In this document: in pieces, positions 15,525-40,203 of the stretch | Layout: each line of letters opens with the position of its first letter | Numbering within the stretch: the first letter of the stretch is position 1 | Assembly (NCBI GenBank): GCA_015066205.1 | Contig: SVOV01000011.1 | Span: forward strand, 1 to 60,603 | Direction of reading: 5' to 3' | Source: Oscillospiraceae bacterium | Lineage (GTDB): Bacteria; Bacillota; Clostridia; Oscillospirales; Acutalibacteraceae | Length of the DNA: 60,603 nucleotides | Notes under the pieces: model-generated | What the model was told of the DNA's origin: nothing | The model's database searches: none | Seen by the model: only the letters and a program-made list of their open reading frames with translations | Program-made: the position numbers and the translations under genes

Positions 15525-18500
15525 ATGTTTTCAAATTGTTTGAAAAAATCTCTTGCTTTTCTGCTGACCCTGATGATGGTAATTTCGGTTGCCCCCGTTC
15601 AGGTTATAGCTGCAGAAATTGCAGAGTATTCAGATGAATGTGAACATGTCTGGGATGACGGACATTTATCTGTTTTACCCGATTGTGTAACTGAAGGTGT
15701 AAGAGAGTTCACCTGTATCCTGTGTTTGGACTCTAAAACTGAGCCTGAACCTGCGCTCGGTCACGATATTGAAAAACACGAGGGCAAAAAGCCCACATAT
15801 ACATCTGCAGGTTGGGAACCCTATGAAACCTGTAAAAGATGCGAAGAATATAACACTTTCGTCTCTATTCCCGCACTCGGTGAACCCGAAATTACGGATT
15901 TTGATGAATTCATAGAAAATCTTCCTATTCTTGAAGAAATTGCAGATACCTATGTAAAAAAGGTGGCTCCCGGTAAGGACCCCGCTATGCTTATTATTAA
16001 GTATATCCGTACAGGTGTAGACCGTTACAATTCCGGCTCATGGAACATTATGGCCGGATATGAAGATGCTGATTTTGCTTCTTATGTAAAAAAATATGAA
16101 GATGAATATAATGAGGCTCTCGCTGATGGCGAAGAAAAGATGAAGGTGACAGGCCTTAAGAATATTCATGAATTCGATCTTCCCAACGGTGATTTTGCAG
16201 ATATCGGCCATGTTTTCGGTTCAATGGATATCACTTATACTAATAAAAACAGTGAAGATCATATGGACGTTTCAGGTTGGGCAGGAGATACTGTTGACCT
16301 TATGAGTCTTGTTGACCTGTTCGGTGTTAAATCCACCGATATCGAAGACATTATTGTCGAAATCAACGAAAAGTATTTCCTTAAGTATGAAGAGGAATTT
16401 AAAGACAATGAAGAATATGAGGAAGAGACTTTTGAAGGAACTTTCAGCCAGACTGACATTGAAGGTGACCTTGATGCCTTCTATATTATGCAGCAGCTTC
16501 TTGGTTCTGAATATGAAAACGGCACTCTTACCGAAATTTTCTCAAATTATATGACTCATGAGCTTAATAATAAGCAGAGAGCAAAGTATTTCCTGGATAA
16601 CCGTCTTGACGGTGTCAGCCTTCGTTCGGATGTCAGAGATGCTGTTTATAATGAAGTTGTTGCAAACGGAGTTGTAATGACTCTTGAAGGCACCCGTCCT
16701 TTTAAAACCGATAATATTACTCTGCTCAGAAAGGCCTGCTGTTATGTTTTTGCAGATTTTATCTGTAAGCTCGGCGGTGATTTTACCGAGATAAAAGAAA
16801 ATACCCTTTATGATGTCTTCCAGACAGAAACTCTTACTCTTGCCCCCGGAATCGTACAGAAGATCAACTATGCAAACACTACTGACGGTAAGACAATGGT
16901 ATTCTATACAGCAACCGGCGATATTACTAAAGATAATGTTAATGTTTATGCCAACTATAACAATAATGATCCTGCAGGCGGATGGGCTATGCAGAGAGTT
17001 ATTGATCAGGCAAATGCCGCACAGAATAAGTACGGCGATCCCGAAAATGAGAATTATATCGAAAATTTCAATGTTATAGCAAGTATCAACGGTGCCGGAT
17101 ATGATATGTATACAGGTGAGCCCAGCGGTATTCTCGTTATGAACGGAGTAACATATCATCCTATTAATGCTGACGGTTTCTTTGGTATTCTTGATGACGG
17201 AACCGCAATGATCGGCACAATGGAAGAGTTTATGGCTCTTCAGGCTGAGCGTCCCGGTTGTGTCAAGGAAGCAATTGCTACCTTTGGCGGTCTTATCAGA
17301 AACGGTGAAATCGTTGCTACTGACGGCGGAGACCGTGCAAGCCGTACTGCTGTAGGCATTACTGCTACAGGTAAGGTTGTATTTATGGTTCTTGACGGAC
17401 GTCAGGGGGACCTTTCCTGCGGCGGTAATATGAGAGAAATTGCTCAGATAATGTATGAAGCAGGCTGTGTTATTGCCGGTAACCTTGACGGCGGCGGATC
17501 AAGTACCTATGTTGCCAAGCAGCCCGGTGATGAAGAGCTTACTGTTGTAAGTAAGCCTTCCGACGGTATATCCCGTTCAGTTTCAACCTCTCTTTATATG
17601 GTTTCTACCGCTCCCGACTCAACAGCATTTGACCGTGCTGTTATCGAAAGCGATTACGCTTATTTTACTGTAGGTGCCTCCGATACATTTACAGCAACTG
17701 CTGTAAGTGCGACAGGTAATCAGGTCGAAATGCCTGAAGGCGTTGAATGGGCTGTTTCTGACGAGGCTGTCGGTTCTATCACATCCGACGGTGTATTCAC
17801 AGCAACGGCAAAGGGTTCTGCACAGATCCTTCTTAAGCTTGACGGTGTTGTTGTAGGATACAAGAATATTAATGTTGTTGATCCTGATAATGTGTATTTT
17901 GAAAAGGCTAAAATGAATGCCATCTACGATGTTCCCGTAACCTTGCCTGTAAGAGTTGCTTTTGAAGGTAAGGCTGTTGCATTTGTCGATACTGATGTTG
18001 TAATCAGTGTCGCAGATCCTTCACACGGAACAATTGTCGGTTTTACATTTACAGGTAATGAGGCATCGGGGCTCAGATTAATTACTGTAACAGCTGCTCT
18101 TACAAAAGATACTTCAATTACAGGTACAATGAATCTTGCAATGTACACCAAGGATGAAGCAAGCTTTGAATTTGAAAATGCTGACGGCGGTGAGCATCAG
18201 TTAGCATGGATCCGTGAGGTTACAAATTCTTCCAAAGAGGGCGCTAACTCCTATTGGGCAATTGATAAGACGCAGCCGATGGAGGCCTATTATACCTTTG
18301 CAATGGATATGAGCTATCTCGAGCTTCCCGCACAGCTTCAGGATCTTACTTATATGCTTCCCGGTGCCGATGTCGAAGGAAACAATACAGCCTGGAGCTT
18401 CCTGCTTCAGCTTGCTGAGCGTATCAGTGTTCTTACCGAGGTTACTCCCGTTATTTACTTTGATAAGAGTGTTGATATTGATATTTCAAAGCTTTCCATC

Positions 18501-20450
18501 AATACTGAGTATTTCTCACTTAAGGAAGCCAAGTTAGATACTGAAGAAAATTGTCTGACGCTTGTTCTCAAGTGGAACAGACAGGTAAAGCCCATCGATA
18601 TTGCCGCTGCAAATCCCTTATGTATTCTTACGGGTATTAAAATGACCCCCAAGGATGATGCGGCTTGGACATCAAGCAAATCACTTGTTATTACTAACAA
18701 GGGTCGTATTGATTATGATGTTTATCTTCGTGCAAATGCTCTCTATTCATTCTCAAGCAAGCCTGAAAATCAAGAAACTTACGGACTTTATCCCTTCCAG
18801 AATATCCGTGAAGACGGTGTTCAGGAAAACGGAGGACATTTTGCCTCTACATATAAAGTCTTCGAAGACCAATTTACTCTTCATAACGGAGAAAAAGAAG
18901 GTTGGGTCATTGAAGGCGATGGTTTTGTATACTATGAAAACGGTGTAAGGTATCTCGGTATCAAAGAAATTGACGGACTTTATTATGATTTCGGAGATGA
19001 CGGTGTTAACCTCGGACAGAAGCCTTATACAGGTGCCATGAAAGAGGAAAACGGAGATGAGTTCTGGCTTGTAAACGGTAAAAAGTATACCGGCTGGATG
19101 ATTCGTGATATGAAGGATGTTGCTTATTACAACCCTGAAACAGGTCTTCGTGAAAAACTCATTGCCGATGAAGTTCCCTCAACCTGTATCATTGACGGTC
19201 ACTGTATATATACATCTGAATCCGGTGCTGTAAAGCGTATTGATTATGATGATGCCGCCGGTCACGAATATGTACAGCAGGAAGACGGCTCAAATGTCTG
19301 CTCAATATGCGGATATGTACGGATTGAGATGACAGAGGCAACTGTTACTCTCAGCTACTATACAACAACATATACAGGAACTGCGAAAACGCCCACAACA
19401 ACAGCTGTTGCGGCTGACGGCAGAGTTCTTACGAAGCTCGGTCAGGTATCGCACTATGACTATTATACAAACTATTCTAACAATATAAATGTCGGTACTG
19501 CTTATGTTAAGCTTACTGCTATGAAGTACGGTAAATATCAGAATCTTCTTACTTGGAGAGGTAATGCCGCAGGAACTGTGACTGTAACATTTGAAATTAG
19601 ACCCGATGTGCCTGCAAATGTTTCACTTACTGAGATTGACGATAAGGTCGTATTAGAATGGAGCAAAGCTTTAGCACCGGATGTTACTTATGTTATTTAT
19701 TCCTCTGAAGACGGTATTACATGGACTGAAGAAGCTGAAACAACTGAGCTTACTTACGCTCTTGATACTGATAAAGCCATAAATAAGCTCTTCTGTATAG
19801 GCACCCGTAAGGTCGTTGACGATAAGACATATGAATCTATTCAGAATTCCAAGAGCGTGTCAATGGACACAATAGCAGTAAGTTCTGCTATAAATAATGA
19901 AGGTAAGCCCATCTTCTCATGGAATGAGATCACTAATGCAACCGAATATCAGGTATATCGTTCCGAGAGTGCAAACGGAAAATATGTACGCGTACTGAAA
20001 ACTACCGGAACAACTTATACTCATATTTCTGCTGTTGCCGATAAGACTTATTATTACTATGTAAAGGCTGTTCTTGATGACGGAACGGAAATCAAGGGTG
20101 ATATCATATCCGCTACAACCTGCAGTGAGCATAATTATGAGTGGGTAATTACCAAGCCCGCAGAGGTTGGTGTAAACGGCGTTGAATCTTATATTTGTAA
20201 CAAATGTAATGATGTGAAGGAGACTAAAGAAATTCCGGCGCTTCAGCCTGAATATGCTCCCGGTGATGTTGATATGGACGGAGATATCAAGGCCGCTGAT
20301 GCAAGGCTTGCTCTTCGATATTCAGTTAACCTTGAAGAACTCACTGAAACACAGATCAAAGCAGCTGATGTTGACGGTAACGGTGAGGTAAAAGCCGGAG
20401 ATGCGCGTCTTATTCTTCGAGCATCCGTAGGACTTGAAACTCTCAACTAA
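15525..20450 (+). CDS. Secreted NAGPA-type phosphodiester glycosidase with dockerin
   Basis: 1641 residues. Signal peptide (1-30), a Cys-pair repeat near 40-120, then a phosphodiester glycosidase (NAGPA, pfam09992) core at about 440-700: FNVIASINGAGYDMYTGEPS, TDGGDRASRTAVGIT, GNLDGGGSSTYV, DGISRSVSTSLYMVS. These enzymes remove sugar-1-phosphate diesters (eukaryotic uncovering enzyme; bacterial relatives act on cell-wall glycopolymers). Next come a Big2-like domain (VEWAVSDEAVGSITSDGVF, about 740), choline-binding-like aromatic repeats (about 1120-1210), two fibronectin III-like domains (about 1360-1530) and a C-terminal dockerin (about 1580-1640). It acts outside the cell. Sitting next to a LicD/TagD-like operon, a phosphate-linked wall polymer is a plausible substrate. 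Confidence 0.85.
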   Translation: MFSNCLKKSLAFLLTLMMVISVAPVQVIAAEIAEYSDECEHVWDDGHLSVLPDCVTEGVREFTCILCLDSKTEPEPALGHDIEKHEGKKPTYTSAGWEPYETCKRCEEYNTFVSIPALGEPEITDFDEFIENLPILEEIADTYVKKVAPGKDPAMLIIKYIRTGVDRYNSGSWNIMAGYEDADFASYVKKYEDEYNEALADGEEKMKVTGLKNIHEFDLPNGDFADIGHVFGSMDITYTNKNSEDHMDVSGWAGDTVDLMSLVDLFGVKSTDIEDIIVEINEKYFLKYEEEFKDNEEYEEETFEGTFSQTDIEGDLDAFYIMQQLLGSEYENGTLTEIFSNYMTHELNNKQRAKYFLDNRLDGVSLRSDVRDAVYNEVVANGVVMTLEGTRPFKTDNITLLRKACCYVFADFICKLGGDFTEIKENTLYDVFQTETLTLAPGIVQKINYANTTDGKTMVFYTATGDITKDNVNVYANYNNNDPAGGWAMQRVIDQANAAQNKYGDPENENYIENFNVIASINGAGYDMYTGEPSGILVMNGVTYHPINADGFFGILDDGTAMIGTMEEFMALQAERPGCVKEAIATFGGLIRNGEIVATDGGDRASRTAVGITATGKVVFMVLDGRQGDLSCGGNMREIAQIMYEAGCVIAGNLDGGGSSTYVAKQPGDEELTVVSKPSDGISRSVSTSLYMVSTAPDSTAFDRAVIESDYAYFTVGASDTFTATAVSATGNQVEMPEGVEWAVSDEAVGSITSDGVFTATAKGSAQILLKLDGVVVGYKNINVVDPDNVYFEKAKMNAIYDVPVTLPVRVAFEGKAVAFVDTDVVISVADPSHGTIVGFTFTGNEASGLRLITVTAALTKDTSITGTMNLAMYTKDEASFEFENADGGEHQLAWIREVTNSSKEGANSYWAIDKTQPMEAYYTFAMDMSYLELPAQLQDLTYMLPGADVEGNNTAWSFLLQLAERISVLTEVTPVIYFDKSVDIDISKLSINTEYFSLKEAKLDTEENCLTLVLKWNRQVKPIDIAAANPLCILTGIKMTPKDDAAWTSSKSLVITNKGRIDYDVYLRANALYSFSSKPENQETYGLYPFQNIREDGVQENGGHFASTYKVFEDQFTLHNGEKEGWVIEGDGFVYYENGVRYLGIKEIDGLYYDFGDDGVNLGQKPYTGAMKEENGDEFWLVNGKKYTGWMIRDMKDVAYYNPETGLREKLIADEVPSTCIIDGHCIYTSESGAVKRIDYDDAAGHEYVQQEDGSNVCSICGYVRIEMTEATVTLSYYTTTYTGTAKTPTTTAVAADGRVLTKLGQVSHYDYYTNYSNNINVGTAYVKLTAMKYGKYQNLLTWRGNAAGTVTVTFEIRPDVPANVSLTEIDDKVVLEWSKALAPDVTYVIYSSEDGITWTEEAETTELTYALDTDKAINKLFCIGTRKVVDDKTYESIQNSKSVSMDTIAVSSAINNEGKPIFSWNEITNATEYQVYRSESANGKYVRVLKTTGTTYTHISAVADKTYYYYVKAVLDDGTEIKGDIISATTCSEHNYEWVITKPAEVGVNGVESYICNKCNDVKETKEIPALQPEYAPGDVDMDGDIKAADARLALRYSVNLEELTETQIKAADVDGNGEVKAGDARLILRASVGLETLN

Positions 20451-36274: not shown

Positions 36275-36321
36275 TACTAATGTAAGTAATAATTAATATT
36301 ACTAAAGAAAGGATGAGTTTT

Positions 36322-37611
36322 GTGGCTGAGATTAAAATTGAACTTACTCCCGAACAGCTCGCTATTCTTAACGGCGAAAAGGGAGAAACAATGGCAAAAA
36401 TTATGAAAACATTGGTTATGTACGGCGAAACCTTCGGCGCTACCAAGATGGTTCCTGTTACAGGTAAGAAGGGACATCTTGTAACAAGCTTCGGCATTAA
36501 GGTTATGAAGCCTGTATATGAGCTTATGGATAGACTTATCAGTGACGGCGTTGTATCCGGACAGCAGTTTTCTGTCGACCCCAAGCCTGTTGATAAAAAT
36601 GTTCCTGCAAGCTTCCTTGAGAATCTTATTTTCAAGAAATTTATGTATTCTGCTCAGGATATGTATGACGGTCAGCTTCAGAAAATGGGACTTGTAAGCG
36701 ACACCGCTTATACTTGTACTTGTTATCTTGACGAAGTAGGAAACACACCTGAGAAGGGTGACATTCTTTCCTGGGCTGAATCGAGTGCTGTTGTATATGC
36801 AAACTCCGTGCTCGGTGCACGCTGTAACAGAAATTCAGGTATTATTGATCTTTTCGGCTCAATAGTAGGCTATGTTCCTTATTTCGGTCTTCTTACTGAT
36901 GAGGGAAGAAAGGCCACATGGATCGTTGAGGTTAAGACTGATAAGATTCCCGAGGCTCAGGTTCTCGGCTCTGCTATCGGTATGAAAGTAATGGAAGATG
37001 TTCCTTATGTAAAAGGACTTGATAAATGGATCGGTAATGAACTTAATGATGATGCTAAGGCTTATCTTAAGGATTTCGGTGCCGCAACTGCATCAAACGG
37101 TGCTGTAGGTCTTTATCATATTGACGGTCTTACTCCTGAAGCTGTTGAAATGGGTGAAGCTCTCATTTCTGAAAATGCACAGGTCTATGTAATCGATGAT
37201 GCCGAGCTTGAAAGAGTCAAGAACAATTATCCTGTTATCTGGAAGGATAAGAATGCAGAACCTAAGCTTTGCTTTATCGGATGTCCCCATCTTACATATT
37301 CTCAGCTTATCGATTGGACAGAAAAGGTTGAAGCAGGTCTTAAGGCTGCAGGAAACAGTAAGGTAGTTATTCCTACGGTGTTTACTGCTGCGCCCACTGT
37401 TGTTGAGAAGTTCAATAAGACAGCATATGCTGCAAGACTTAAGAAGACAGGCGTTATTTTGAGTTACATTTGTCCTCTTATGTATATGAATAATCCTCTT
37501 TGCGGTAAGAAGCCTGTTATAACAAACTCAAATAAGCTCAGAACTTATACAACTTCCCGTTATTATACAAATTCTGATATTCTTGATTGCATCACTAAGG
37601 GGGTTAAATAA
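36322..37611 (+). CDS. Aconitase X catalytic (large) subunit
   Basis: 429 residues. MAEIKIELTPEQLAILNGEK, MYGETFGATKMVPVTGKKGH, VGNTPEKGDILSWAESSAVV, YANSVLGARCNRNSGI, and FIGCPHLTYSQL are aconitase X signatures; cysteines in GARCNR, GCPH and SYICP can hold the iron-sulfur cluster. AcnX enzymes dehydrate cis-3-hydroxy-L-proline or, in archaea, phosphomevalonate. Start choice: GTG 36322 lies eight bases after AAAGGA, whereas ATG 36313 abuts it. The small subunit begins one base after the stop and a DapA-like gene follows, so a hydroxyproline-type dehydration pathway is more likely than an isoprenoid one (inference). Confidence 0.88.
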   Translation: MAEIKIELTPEQLAILNGEKGETMAKIMKTLVMYGETFGATKMVPVTGKKGHLVTSFGIKVMKPVYELMDRLISDGVVSGQQFSVDPKPVDKNVPASFLENLIFKKFMYSAQDMYDGQLQKMGLVSDTAYTCTCYLDEVGNTPEKGDILSWAESSAVVYANSVLGARCNRNSGIIDLFGSIVGYVPYFGLLTDEGRKATWIVEVKTDKIPEAQVLGSAIGMKVMEDVPYVKGLDKWIGNELNDDAKAYLKDFGAATASNGAVGLYHIDGLTPEAVEMGEALISENAQVYVIDDAELERVKNNYPVIWKDKNAEPKLCFIGCPHLTYSQLIDWTEKVEAGLKAAGNSKVVIPTVFTAAPTVVEKFNKTAYAARLKKTGVILSYICPLMYMNNPLCGKKPVITNSNKLRTYTTSRYYTNSDILDCITKGVK

Positions 37612-37612
37612 A

Positions 37613-38053
37613 ATGAAAACATTCAAAGGACGCGTAGTTGTTCCCGGCTCCTGCGAAGCTGAAGCTCTTGTTACCAAGAACGGCTTCAATACTCTTGCAA
37701 GCTTCCAGAAGAGCCTTCAGTTCGGTGATAAGACCGCAAAATGCGGAGATCAGAACAATCCCGACCTTTATAATAAACCTATGGTAGGAACCGCTCTTTG
37801 TCTTCCTCAGACAATCGGTTCAACAACAGGCGGTATGGTACTTTACTGTGCAACTGCAATGAACAGAAGTCCTGCTTGTCTTCTTTTCTCAAAGCCCATT
37901 GACTCTCTTGCTGCAGCAGGTGCAATTCTTTCGGATATCTGGACAGAAAATTCTCTTCCCACTATTGACTGTCTGGGAGATGAATTCCTTGATACTGTAA
38001 AAACAGGTGATAAGATAAAAGTAGAGGAGGACGGTACTGTTACCATTCTTTGA
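37613..38053 (+). CDS. Aconitase X swivel (small) subunit
   Basis: 146 residues. FKGRVVVPGSCEAEALVTKN, KSLQFGDKTAKCGDQNNPDL, CLPQTIGSTTGGMVL and RSPACLLFSKPID are typical of the AcnX small subunit (DUF126), which closes over the active site of the large subunit. The start ATG is one base beyond the large-subunit stop, with AAGGGGG upstream, indicating coupled translation and a 1:1 complex. Confidence 0.88.
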   Translation: MKTFKGRVVVPGSCEAEALVTKNGFNTLASFQKSLQFGDKTAKCGDQNNPDLYNKPMVGTALCLPQTIGSTTGGMVLYCATAMNRSPACLLFSKPIDSLAAAGAILSDIWTENSLPTIDCLGDEFLDTVKTGDKIKVEEDGTVTIL

Positions 38054-38071
38054 TAACTCTACCAATGCACT

Positions 38072-38971
38072 ATGTCTAAATTAACTGAAAATTATGAAGG
38101 CATCTATTCATTGATGCTGACACCTTATAACGATGATCTTTCTGTAGATTATAATGCTTATGAGGAATATGCCGACTGGCAGGTTTCACAGGGAGTCGAA
38201 CATCTTTTTGCTGTCTGCGGAAGCTCTGAAATGGCAAATCTTACTCTTAATGAAAGAGTAAAGCTTGCTGAACTTACTGTTAAGCATAAAGGCAACACAA
38301 CAGTTGTTGCAACTGCTAATATGGAGCCCTCATGGTTCAGTCAGGTCGAAGAAGTAAAAAGAATTACTGCAACAGGTGTTGACGGAATCGTTTTTACAAC
38401 AAAGGGCTTCGGCAATGATCCCGACAGACTTGTAAGTTATGTTGGTGAGCTTAAAGCTTATACGCATCTGCCTGTGTTTATGTATGAGTTTCCAGGTCTT
38501 CAGCCTCACATAATTTCAGGCGAATGCTACGGCAAGCTTGTTAAAGAATGCGGAGTTTACGGTATAAAGGATACGACTTGTACACTTGAAGGCATCAGCT
38601 CAAAGATAGACAATAAGGGGGATTCCTGTGTTATTCAGGCGAATATGCCTTTCCTTTTTGAAGCTTATAAGCTCGGTGCCCGCGGTGTTATGGCTACTCC
38701 CACAGCCTGCGGCGGTGCATTCTTCCAGAGATTCCATGAAGCATTTATGAGCGGCGATATGGAGCTTGCCGAAAAGAGATATAATGAGATTATTCTTCTT
38801 GATAATGCTATTGACAGCGGATTTAATTGTTCCGCCAAGTATCTTGTTAATCTTCAGGGTGTTAAGGGGATGAAAGCTATCAACCGCGGAAAACAGCAGC
38901 TTTCGTCTGCAAGACTTCAGAGTCTTAAGTCATTCCATAACTGGTGTGTTGCCGAAGGCCTGATGAAATAA
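38072..38971 (+). CDS. DapA/NAL-family lyase or deaminase
   Basis: 299 residues, TIM-barrel of the dihydrodipicolinate synthase/N-acetylneuraminate lyase family. Schiff-base lysine in GVYGIKDTT and tyrosine in FMYEFPG (usual Y-N-x-P) fit. The substrate loop AVCGSSEMANLTLNE replaces the usual G-T-T-G-E, so this is not an ordinary lysine-pathway DapA. Adjacent to aconitase X subunits (18 bases), it may be a hydroxypyrroline-carboxylate deaminase or an aldolase acting on the dehydrated product (inference). A strong terminator follows. Confidence 0.82.
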   Translation: MSKLTENYEGIYSLMLTPYNDDLSVDYNAYEEYADWQVSQGVEHLFAVCGSSEMANLTLNERVKLAELTVKHKGNTTVVATANMEPSWFSQVEEVKRITATGVDGIVFTTKGFGNDPDRLVSYVGELKAYTHLPVFMYEFPGLQPHIISGECYGKLVKECGVYGIKDTTCTLEGISSKIDNKGDSCVIQANMPFLFEAYKLGARGVMATPTACGGAFFQRFHEAFMSGDMELAEKRYNEIILLDNAIDSGFNCSAKYLVNLQGVKGMKAINRGKQQLSSARLQSLKSFHNWCVAEGLMK

Positions 38972-39009: not shown

Positions 39010-39043
39010 AAAAAGAGAGGGACAAATAAATGTCCCTCTTTTT
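39010..39043. terminator. Terminator of the two-peptide unit (bidirectional)
   Basis: AGAGGGACA (39016-39024) pairs perfectly with TGTCCCTCT (39031-39039). An A run on the left gives a T run for minus-strand transcripts, and a T run follows on the right. It ends the transcript of the two small peptides. Confidence 0.8.
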
Positions 39044-39058
39044 TAATTGCGTATACAA

Positions 39059-39190
39059 TTATTCGCCTGTTGTTTCGTCTGCATCGGGTATAACTGTGGG
39101 TTCTTCTTCACCCTTAAGAGCAGCAACAAGACCTTTGATAGTATCAATGAGATATAAAATAAAATCATAAATCTTCTGTACGAATTCCAT
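39059..39190 (-). CDS. Small amphipathic-helix peptide A (43 aa)
   Basis: 43 residues, with a strong AGGAGG site six to eight bases before the ATG (minus strand). Residues 1-26 (MEFVQKIYDFILYLIDTIKG then LVAALK) form a near-perfect amphipathic helix with hydrophobic residues at 3-4 spacing; an acidic tail follows (GEEEPTVIPDADETTGE). No cysteines, no classical signal peptide, no leader. It is second in a two-gene unit with peptide B, whose N-terminal half is clearly similar (E-x-x-x-K-I at the start; I-K-G/D-L-V-A). Charge pattern and size recall phenol-soluble-modulin-like peptides or membrane-binding microproteins, but no homologue is established. Too short for ordinary gene callers. Confidence 0.75.
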   Translation of the reverse strand: MEFVQKIYDFILYLIDTIKGLVAALKGEEEPTVIPDADETTGE

Positions 39191-39230
39191 TAATCTGACC
39201 TCCTTTATTAAATAATGAAGCGGGGCTTAA

Positions 39231-39329
39231 TTACTTCTTATCGTTTTCTGCACGGATGGAAGCAACTAAATCCTTGATTGTCTGAATAAATCCTTTGATG
39301 AGTTCAACGATTTTGTTAATGATTTCCAT
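39231..39329 (-). CDS. Small amphipathic-helix peptide B (32 aa)
   Basis: 32 residues, with AGGAGG seven bases before the ATG. MEIINKIVELIKGFIQTIKD, then LVASIRAENDKK, can form one continuous amphipathic helix with one hydrophobic face (I, I, V, L, I, F, I, I, L, V) and a Lys/Glu face. It is the promoter-proximal gene of a two-peptide unit; 40 bases separate it from peptide A. The two share a design but differ in length and tail, like paired peptide systems. Role could be membrane-active secreted peptide, membrane-anchoring microprotein or toxin; none is shown. Confidence 0.75.
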   Translation of the reverse strand: MEIINKIVELIKGFIQTIKDLVASIRAENDKK

Positions 39330-39359
39330 AATTGAATCCTCCTTAAGATTTCTGTATAC

Positions 39360-39388
39360 ATAATATCATATCAGAAAAATAATTTCAA
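39360..39388 (-). promoter_or_regulatory. Promoter of the two-peptide unit
   Basis: Minus strand: TTGAAA (39388-39383), 17-base spacer, TATTAT (39365-39360). It lies 31 bases upstream of the peptide B start and nothing else could use it, since the next gene is beyond and ends toward it. Confidence 0.65.
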
Positions 39389-39434
39389 TTAAATTTTGGA
39401 TGTTCACAAAAATTTAACCAAATAGCATAACCAA

Positions 39435-39932
39435 TTACCAATTATAGTCTCTTAACTGACCGAAATTCTGAAGTTCAGGATATTTCCATTGCCGAAGAAC
39501 TTCATATGTTCCTATTGCAACGGCATTTGAAAGATTAAGACTTCTTGCATCTGATATCATCGGAATTCTTACAGTTGTATCAGGATTATTGAACAAAAGC
39601 TCCTCGGGAAGACCTGCTGTTTCTTTGCCGAATACAAGAAAGGTATTTTCCGGATAAACAATATCAGTATGTGTATGCTTGGCTTTCGTTGAAAAATAGA
39701 AAAAATTACCGTCTTTATTCTTACTGAAAAAGTCATCCTGCGAGTCATAATAAGCAATATCAAGAAGATACCAATAATCAAGACCGGCGCGTTTTAGTTT
39801 TTTGTCGTCAACCTTAAATCCCATAGGTTCAACAATATGAAGTCTGGCTCCCGTTGCTGCGCAAGTTCTTGCAATATTTCCGGTATTTTGCGGAATTTCA
39901 GGTTCTATTAAAACAATATTAAGTTCGTGCAT
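39435..39932 (-). CDS. trmL: tRNA (cytidine(34)-2'-O)-methyltransferase TrmL
   Basis: 165 residues, typical SPOUT-fold TrmL length. MHELNIVLIEPEIPQNTGNI, then ARTC, LVFGKETAGLPEELL and IPMISDARSLNLSNAVAIG contain the three SpoU motifs that bind S-adenosylmethionine in a knot. It methylates the wobble base of tRNA-Leu. Start choice: ATG at 39932 with GGAGATAT upstream; the longer frame to 40208 runs through the next gene's region. Confidence 0.93.
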   Translation of the reverse strand: MHELNIVLIEPEIPQNTGNIARTCAATGARLHIVEPMGFKVDDKKLKRAGLDYWYLLDIAYYDSQDDFFSKNKDGNFFYFSTKAKHTHTDIVYPENTFLVFGKETAGLPEELLFNNPDTTVRIPMISDARSLNLSNAVAIGTYEVLRQWKYPELQNFGQLRDYNW

Positions 39933-40014: not shown

Positions 40015-40203
40015 ATGAATAATTCCAAATATGATACAATGAAGTATATAGGTGCGGCAGTTGCAATAGGAGGAACTATGCTCCTCGGTTCAGGACTTAT
40101 GAGCAGTAATAAATCTATGAAAAAAAAGATGAAAAAAACTGCAAATAAGGCACTTGATGCAGTTGACGGGATCTTAACAGGAATGCAGCATATCGTTAAA
40201 TAA
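40015..40203 (+). CDS. Small basic membrane-anchored protein (62 aa)
   Basis: 62 residues, with GGAGGTG (40002-40008) seven bases before ATG 40015. One hydrophobic segment (IGAAVAIGGTMLLGSGLM, residues 12-29) is followed by a lysine-rich helix (SMKKKMKKTANKALDAVDGI). Such small proteins recur in Firmicutes sporulators with unknown roles; a YtxH-like or coat/membrane function is possible. It is divergent from trmL and precedes the PdaA-like gene by about 90 bases. Confidence 0.65.
   Translation: MNNSKYDTMKYIGAAVAIGGTMLLGSGLMSSNKSMKKKMKKTANKALDAVDGILTGMQHIVK

Follow-up and report, generated by a model that had tools for sequence, protein, structure and literature searches.

The window, i.e. 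the whole stretch of 60,603 nucleotides that was analysed, comes from an uncultured relative of ruminant-gut Clostridia. On its minus strand it carries two short genes in tandem, a type 1 microprotein gene of 32 aa (P0003, 39231..39329) and a type 2 microprotein gene of 43 aa (P0002, 39059..39190), whose ATG codons are both preceded, at a distance of 8 nt, by the Shine-Dalgarno sequence AAGGAGG (39338..39344 and 39199..39205, respectively, minus strand). The original prediction had described two frames of 43 and 32 codons with well-spaced AGGAGG sites, framed by a promoter and a terminator, and all of these were present as claimed. The promoter (TTGAAA-17-TATTAT, 39360..39388, minus strand) has a TG before the -10 box and a -35 box without terminal ACA, and the intrinsic terminator of the pair has its stem at 39016..39039 on the same strand; the two genes are most likely transcribed from this one promoter. 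Also on the minus strand, the direct repeat GGTTAA-N5-TGTGAA (39403..39419) matches TGTDAA-N5-TGTDAA at 11 of 12 positions, its first half-site lying 31 bp before the -35 box, and is a putative site for a regulator of the OmpR/PhoB class (WalR/PhoP-like).

The pair stands between trmL (tRNA 2'-O-methyltransferase, 39435..39932, minus strand, start codon of our choice), the conserved upstream neighbour, and a dihydrodipicolinate-synthase-like gene. Pfam confirmed these two genes and a PdaA-like gene, together with ten picked other neighbours; the FolD and branched-chain amino-acid transport neighbours were named from their sequence starts. The dihydrodipicolinate-synthase-like gene follows an aconitase X made of two subunits (AcnX and the AcnX swivel domain) within 36313-38971, a set of genes that resembles a hydroxyproline-type catabolic operon. 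At 40015-40203 lies a 62-aa ORF with a hydrophobic N-terminal stretch, a Lys-rich middle and no Pfam match, and a similar ORF is found near a peptide locus in genome G009 (L043:2300-2488). Elsewhere in the window, a Gut-1 RNA (RF01706; 47030-47104, minus strand) adjoins a tRNA-Ser gene, and a protein of 1641 aa that combines a type I dockerin with a phosphodiester glycosidase domain (15525-20450) suggests a cellulosome-like system.

Concerning the coding status of the two frames, 56 ORFs of at least 25 aa overlap the 37-42 kb part of the window, and promoter-like sites in the same part are at chance level (7 seen vs. 5.9 in shuffles, sd 2.6). Taken alone, the frames, Shine-Dalgarno sites, promoter and terminator are, as sequence features, little proof, and gene status rests on comparison. 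The two products are paralogues (13 of 31 residues identical, E 8e-8), and relatives carry homologues of both; besides the window's own genome (G000), the pair itself is present in G017, G014 and G006. These three relatives are public assemblies under the names Oscillospiraceae bacterium, Clostridia bacterium (from water deer caecum) and Clostridia bacterium (from sheep rectum). When the window is set against G017, codon positions 1/2/3 differ at 4/0/11 sites in the 32-aa gene (pS 0.58, pN 0.05) and at 10/0/18 sites in the 43-aa gene (pS 0.65, pN 0.15). As a whole, silent change exceeded replacement change per site in 19 of 20 pairwise comparisons, several of whose silent rates are saturated; the exception (G021-G013) has two differences, both replacing. 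All 18 type 1 sequences share I11, R26 and N29.

Single-query searches of 147 genomes, own genome counted, gave matches in 18 for P0003 and in 22 for P0002 (E<=0.1), the weak rows including matches within long frames. Profiles were built from 18 type 1 and 16 type 2 members, and at E<=0.01 they matched 24/26 and 25/26 genomes of the genus, respectively; since either profile also detects members of the opposite type, the figures count the family as a whole, and some of the very weakest matches fall within long frames. Among 250 genomes of the bacterial family, the type 1 profile A2 matched 33 at E<=0.05 and 17 at E<=0.001 (own included), and profile A3 matched 28 at E<=0.05. Among 391 genomes of the class, A2 at E<=0.001 returned a single one, the own genome. 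Conservation of the frames and codon-biased change, by which the original prediction proposed that it be judged, were thus both found.

As for the products, the hydrophobic moments of the two window peptides were reached by fractions of only 0.0018 and 0.0046 of shuffled sequences. AlphaFold2 modelled residues 2-31 of P0003 as one helix (mean pLDDT 94.6) and residues 2-26 of P0002 as one helix at high confidence, followed by an acidic tail at low confidence. Net charges are +1 and -7, respectively, and no secretion signal was seen in the window peptides. This agrees with their earlier description as amphipathic-helix microproteins without signal sequence, and membrane activity of the peptides is plausible. 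Because of their paralogy, their homologues in relatives, the codon-position pattern, the hydrophobic moments and the modelled helices, the two window frames are confirmed, at the level of sequence comparison, as genuine microprotein genes. Chance frames in an intergenic region, a reading that could draw on the many random ORFs of similar size nearby, are refuted by conservation, the codon-position pattern and the homologues, and their probability is close to nil.

Neither window gene was recognised at cut-off by Pfam, NCBIfam, PHROGs or PADLOC, with no PADLOC hit at all and one weak PHROGs hit (E 0.051). Searches of solved structures gave weak matches only, the best being an unrelated protein (E 0.029) and a modulin (E 0.12). 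A viral setting was rejected, since no relative turned up when viral contigs were scanned with A4, the type 2 alignment.

The order trmL, type 1, type 2 on a single strand, followed by the dihydrodipicolinate-synthase-like gene in converging orientation, is shared by the four genomes with the tandem pair (G000, G017, G014 and G006), further ORFs being intercalated between the genes in G017. A tblastn search with TrmL covered 61 stretches, of which 60 were loci and one a 13-kb piece of the window, and matched 18 of them. In ten of the 61 a peptide gene follows trmL directly (the window, L154, L155, L156, L164, L175, L186, L188, L192 and L193); each of these ten is from a different genus genome, and six have type 2 alone. 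Two ORFs separate TrmL from a type 1 peptide in L157, L160, L167 and L169, and one ORF separates TrmL from such a peptide in L198, L200, L201 (here a DegV-family gene) and L202, which belong to other genera. Because the linkage recurs across genus genomes and other genera, the place near trmL is, judging from gene order, old and vertically kept.

This conserved place is one of the points in favour of an intracellular regulator, whose helix would dock onto one membrane-protein or enzyme partner through the R-x-x-N end (type 1) or the acidic tail (type 2). The invariance of I11, R26 and N29, which goes beyond what amphipathicity needs, and the lack of a secretion signal point in the same direction. 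Apart from trmL, directly adjacent at only those ten stretches, no consistent neighbour was seen, however, that might be the partner, and the number of divergent paralogues in each genome speaks for a generic role and not a one-partner one; we consider such regulators unlikely. A type I toxin had also been suggested; such a toxin, single or in tandem, would have an antisense RNA as its repressor, and the shortness and amphipathicity of the peptides would suit it. Nothing found points there: Rfam gave no match at the peptide locus at the gathering threshold, the plus-strand promoter-like site near it reaches only 9/12, which is chance level, and prolonged vertical inheritance at a single place suits such a system poorly. 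We consider it very improbable.

The original interpretation was borne out in part. The pair does recur behind trmL in three relatives, but a closed two-peptide system was not supported, since elsewhere a single type stands by itself, or other peptides form groups of two to four. The pair is not the unit, but a single locus within a dispersed family, with several loci per genome, whose short amphipathic helices often have acidic tails. In the own genome, about 11 such genes were counted at four loci within the 445 kb examined, namely the window pair, three genes at L281 and four at L245 on contig C75, and two at L272 on C40. With the broad profile, kinship proved uneven: the L281 genes scored E 1e-9 to 4e-6, those of L245 0.002 and 0.03 in two cases out of four, and the L272 pair 0.1 and 0.4; for the rest, kinship within the own genome consists in a similar size, start, helix and acidic tail. 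Groups of four genes were also found in G002, G007 and G013. The 64 members found by profile range from 27 to 63 residues; their net charges, from -8 to +4, have a median of -2, and in 60 of them the hydrophobic moment exceeds that of shuffles by more than 1 sd. The longest member (L186) is also the sole cysteine carrier, both features being due to an over-long start choice.

In three related clusters, the first peptide has a start resembling a double-glycine leader (L178:4798-4980, L211:5226-5402 and L212:5796-5984), which the G000 counterpart (L281:11792-11965) lacks. At L211:2346-6243 the cluster is flanked on one side by a pseudouridine synthase gene and on the other by a sigma-70-type sigma factor, after which comes a serpin-domain protein (Pfam), and by appearance L212 and L281:8911-12793 have the same arrangement.

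Repeats of TGTGAA, TGTAAA or TGTTAA with an 11-bp period were first seen by eye upstream of the dispersed peptide genes. With a spacer of 5 and at least 11/12 matches, they occur in 33% of 52 peptide upstreams vs. 1% of 173 control upstreams and 3% of shuffles; with spacers of 2-4 and 6-9, the peptide figure is 0-8%. The control upstreams have the higher G+C content (42% vs. 31%). When control promoters of low G+C were taken, 1/30 reached 10/12, vs. 23/44 peptide promoters. TGTDAA with spacer 5 ranked first among 1440 permuted combinations of half-site and spacer, and the top 12 all had spacer 5. Relative to the -35 box, the best sites concentrate around -23, -32 and -42, at intervals of one helical turn, and a register was defined from these clusters, half-site and register having first been seen in the same set. 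At a promoter score of at least 11, the repeat stands in register in 24/48 peptide promoters vs. 0/73 control promoters. After orthologous loci had been collapsed at the same promoter threshold, with all trmL-linked loci as one group, 15/25 groups had it, whether the first or any member was counted (Fisher 1.8e-11 vs. 0/73), and 12/25 when every member was required (Fisher 6.4e-9 vs. 0/73). An earlier, lenient grouping (any member, L186/L188 kept apart from the trmL group) had given 17/31. Moreover, the -35 box ends in ACA in 0/44 peptide vs. 10/49 control promoters of the TTG type (p 0.0013); the 0/44 applies to that set of 44 promoters, and a caller favouring TTGACA placed boxes with terminal ACA at four peptide loci. 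Such a weak -35 box would suit an activator.

A scan for the repeat followed by TTG and a -10 box, over 778,222 bases (the window and the loci from L154 onward, mostly chosen for their peptides), returned 36 hits, of which 32 lie directly before microprotein genes, one of them (L206) in a frame overlapping a likely gene. Seven of the genes so found were absent from the listing of the profile search (L178, L184, L196, L206, L207, L212 and L245), L245 lying outside that search and the other six loci being covered by it. The promoter is thereby a handle for divergent members, eight genes or groups absent from the first profile listing having been reached in this way. In a less biased set of 845,406 bases (the window and stretches of G000, G006 and G013, with C75 chosen knowing its peptide group), 20 hits were in register and 12 out of register, and three of the 20 stand before microproteins (the window pair, L281 and L285); at 11/12 or better, the same bases gave 8 in register vs. 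0 out. Since only three of 20 in-register hits precede microproteins in this sample, the repeat is not specific to them, and the peptide groups L272 and L307 had no clear repeat site. On these scans, the repeat is a real element, common at peptide loci, and neither exclusive nor universal. Other strong in-register repeat promoters were found at L276:14887, L286:11640, L273:15105, L282:1191, L278:1335 and L272:772; the genes after such repeats, named from sequence, include a ferredoxin-like gene, a binding-protein-like gene and one for a 1569-aa, probably secreted protein, among others, and it is possible that they are further members of the same regulon.

With regard to the regulator, the closest likeness is to WalR/VicR (YycF), whose sites are described, in the excerpts of PMC4168254 and PMC9210968, as TGTWAH-N5-TGTWAH; both share the 6-mer direct repeat, the 5-bp spacer and the TGT-A-A core. 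Compared with the sites given in those excerpts, position 4 is often G at the peptide loci (7/25 and 13/25 sites for the two half-sites). The targets of the repeat are here microproteins, unlike those of the WalR/VicR regulon. At 11/12 or better, TGTWAH-N5-TGTWAH is found in 7/31 locus groups (lenient grouping, any member) vs. 0/73 control promoters, and the broader TGTDAA form fits the peptide loci better. A WalR orthologue was not supported by the curated YycF/WalR model, which none of the 26 genus genomes passed (best per genome 196-244 bits vs. 340), this model being narrow, with only 2/14 control genomes passing; 8-18 regulators per genus genome match it below cut-off. PhoP boxes of B. 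subtilis are similar to the hexamer direct repeat, and a Pho regulon was considered through a link with Pst; it was set aside, as neither pstB (0/26) nor PstS (0/26) exceeded its cut-off in the genus genomes and no box was seen in the promoters of the sub-cut-off PstS-like genes. Because no YycF/WalR and no Pst gene passes its cut-off, the regulator is named by class only. Response regulator genes lie near a peptide gene in G011, G012 (this one confirmed by Pfam) and G015; as such genes are many, their proximity is probably coincidental, and they were not retained as the cognate regulator.

We propose, tentatively and at slightly less than an even chance, that the family consists of membrane-surface microproteins induced together by a regulator of the OmpR/PhoB class. 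Each product would be a single amphipathic helix, to which the longer one adds, in the models, an acidic disordered tail. A response regulator of WalR/PhoP type would bind the repeat and switch the loci on as one response; the helices would then lie on the membrane surface, either from inside or after export, where the mixture of types might change or protect the envelope of the producer, and the acidic tails could keep the peptides soluble or offer a docking site. Against shared control counts the half of the peptide promoters (24/48) without a clear in-register repeat. In its wider form, put forward with a little more reserve, the proposal is of a microprotein regulon of a dozen to several dozen genes per genome, scattered over loci of one to four genes, which one envelope-sensing regulator of WalR/PhoP type would control and whose products would make up a coat of peptides, or a mixture of surfactants, at the membrane. 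Family databases did not recognise the two window genes at their cut-offs, although nearly every genus genome has profile matches, and the promoter element common to many dispersed loci makes them look like one response. Among the titles and beginnings of abstracts that a literature search gave, none looked like an account of these peptides, and none described such a peptide response from several loci for the bacterial family.

The main competing explanation is that of secreted surfactant or antagonistic peptides, similar to modulins or to multi-peptide leaderless bacteriocins, which would be leaderless, exported and active on other membranes; we regard it as doubtful, although it has several points in its favour. 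Like the multi-peptide leaderless bacteriocins aureocin A70 and garvicin KS, the family mostly has no leader and places several different short peptides in tandem, and its groups of four different peptides, as well as the double-glycine-like starts in L178, L211 and L212, would fit such peptides. So would the exporter-type ABC genes (ABC_membrane and ABC_tran) after the type 2 gene in G018 (two genes, L186:549-4177) and G004 (one gene, L188:3144-4919); both type 2 genes sit behind trmL and, read by eye, a terminator-like sequence precedes the ABC genes, which from their position favour an exported over an inner role at these two loci. At the window pair, however, no secretion or immunity genes were seen among the scanned neighbours, which are trmL and the dihydrodipicolinate-synthase-like gene. 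Leaderless bacteriocins have, in the excerpt of PMC6131525, net charges of +3 to +7 and a pI near 11, vs. a family median of -2, and on charge the window pair does not fit that identity. Killing of other cells, while possible, agrees less well with charges that range from near neutral to negative and with the invariant I11, R26 and N29.

Finally, the likeness to modulins that the original prediction had pointed out is real, though weak. The alpha phenol-soluble modulins (NF033425, PF17063) are likewise short and leaderless, form one amphipathic helix, occur as several paralogues and show weak profile similarity, the NCBIfam model PSM_alpha_1_2 matching 3/18 type 1 members (best E 5.7e-5) and 1/16 type 2 members (best E 8.4e-4), and the Pfam model PSMalpha 2/18 type 1 members (best E 6.2e-4). 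The window peptides themselves remain below both curated cut-offs in the case of the 32-aa peptide (22.8 vs. 30 bits and 17.5 vs. 23 bits) and have no match to the PSM models in the case of the 43-aa peptide; they are also longer than modulins, belong to a family in which acidic tails are frequent, and come from another bacterial class. Because of these profile cut-offs and of the charge, the window pair was filed neither under modulins nor under leaderless bacteriocins. Modulins are exported by a Pmt-type transporter, have surfactant and cytolytic activity, and are controlled through a different kind of promoter repeat. If the proposed induction of membrane-surface microproteins is correct, gut bacteria of the Oscillospiraceae type would carry a coordinated programme of membrane peptides that is modulin-like and placed under different control.
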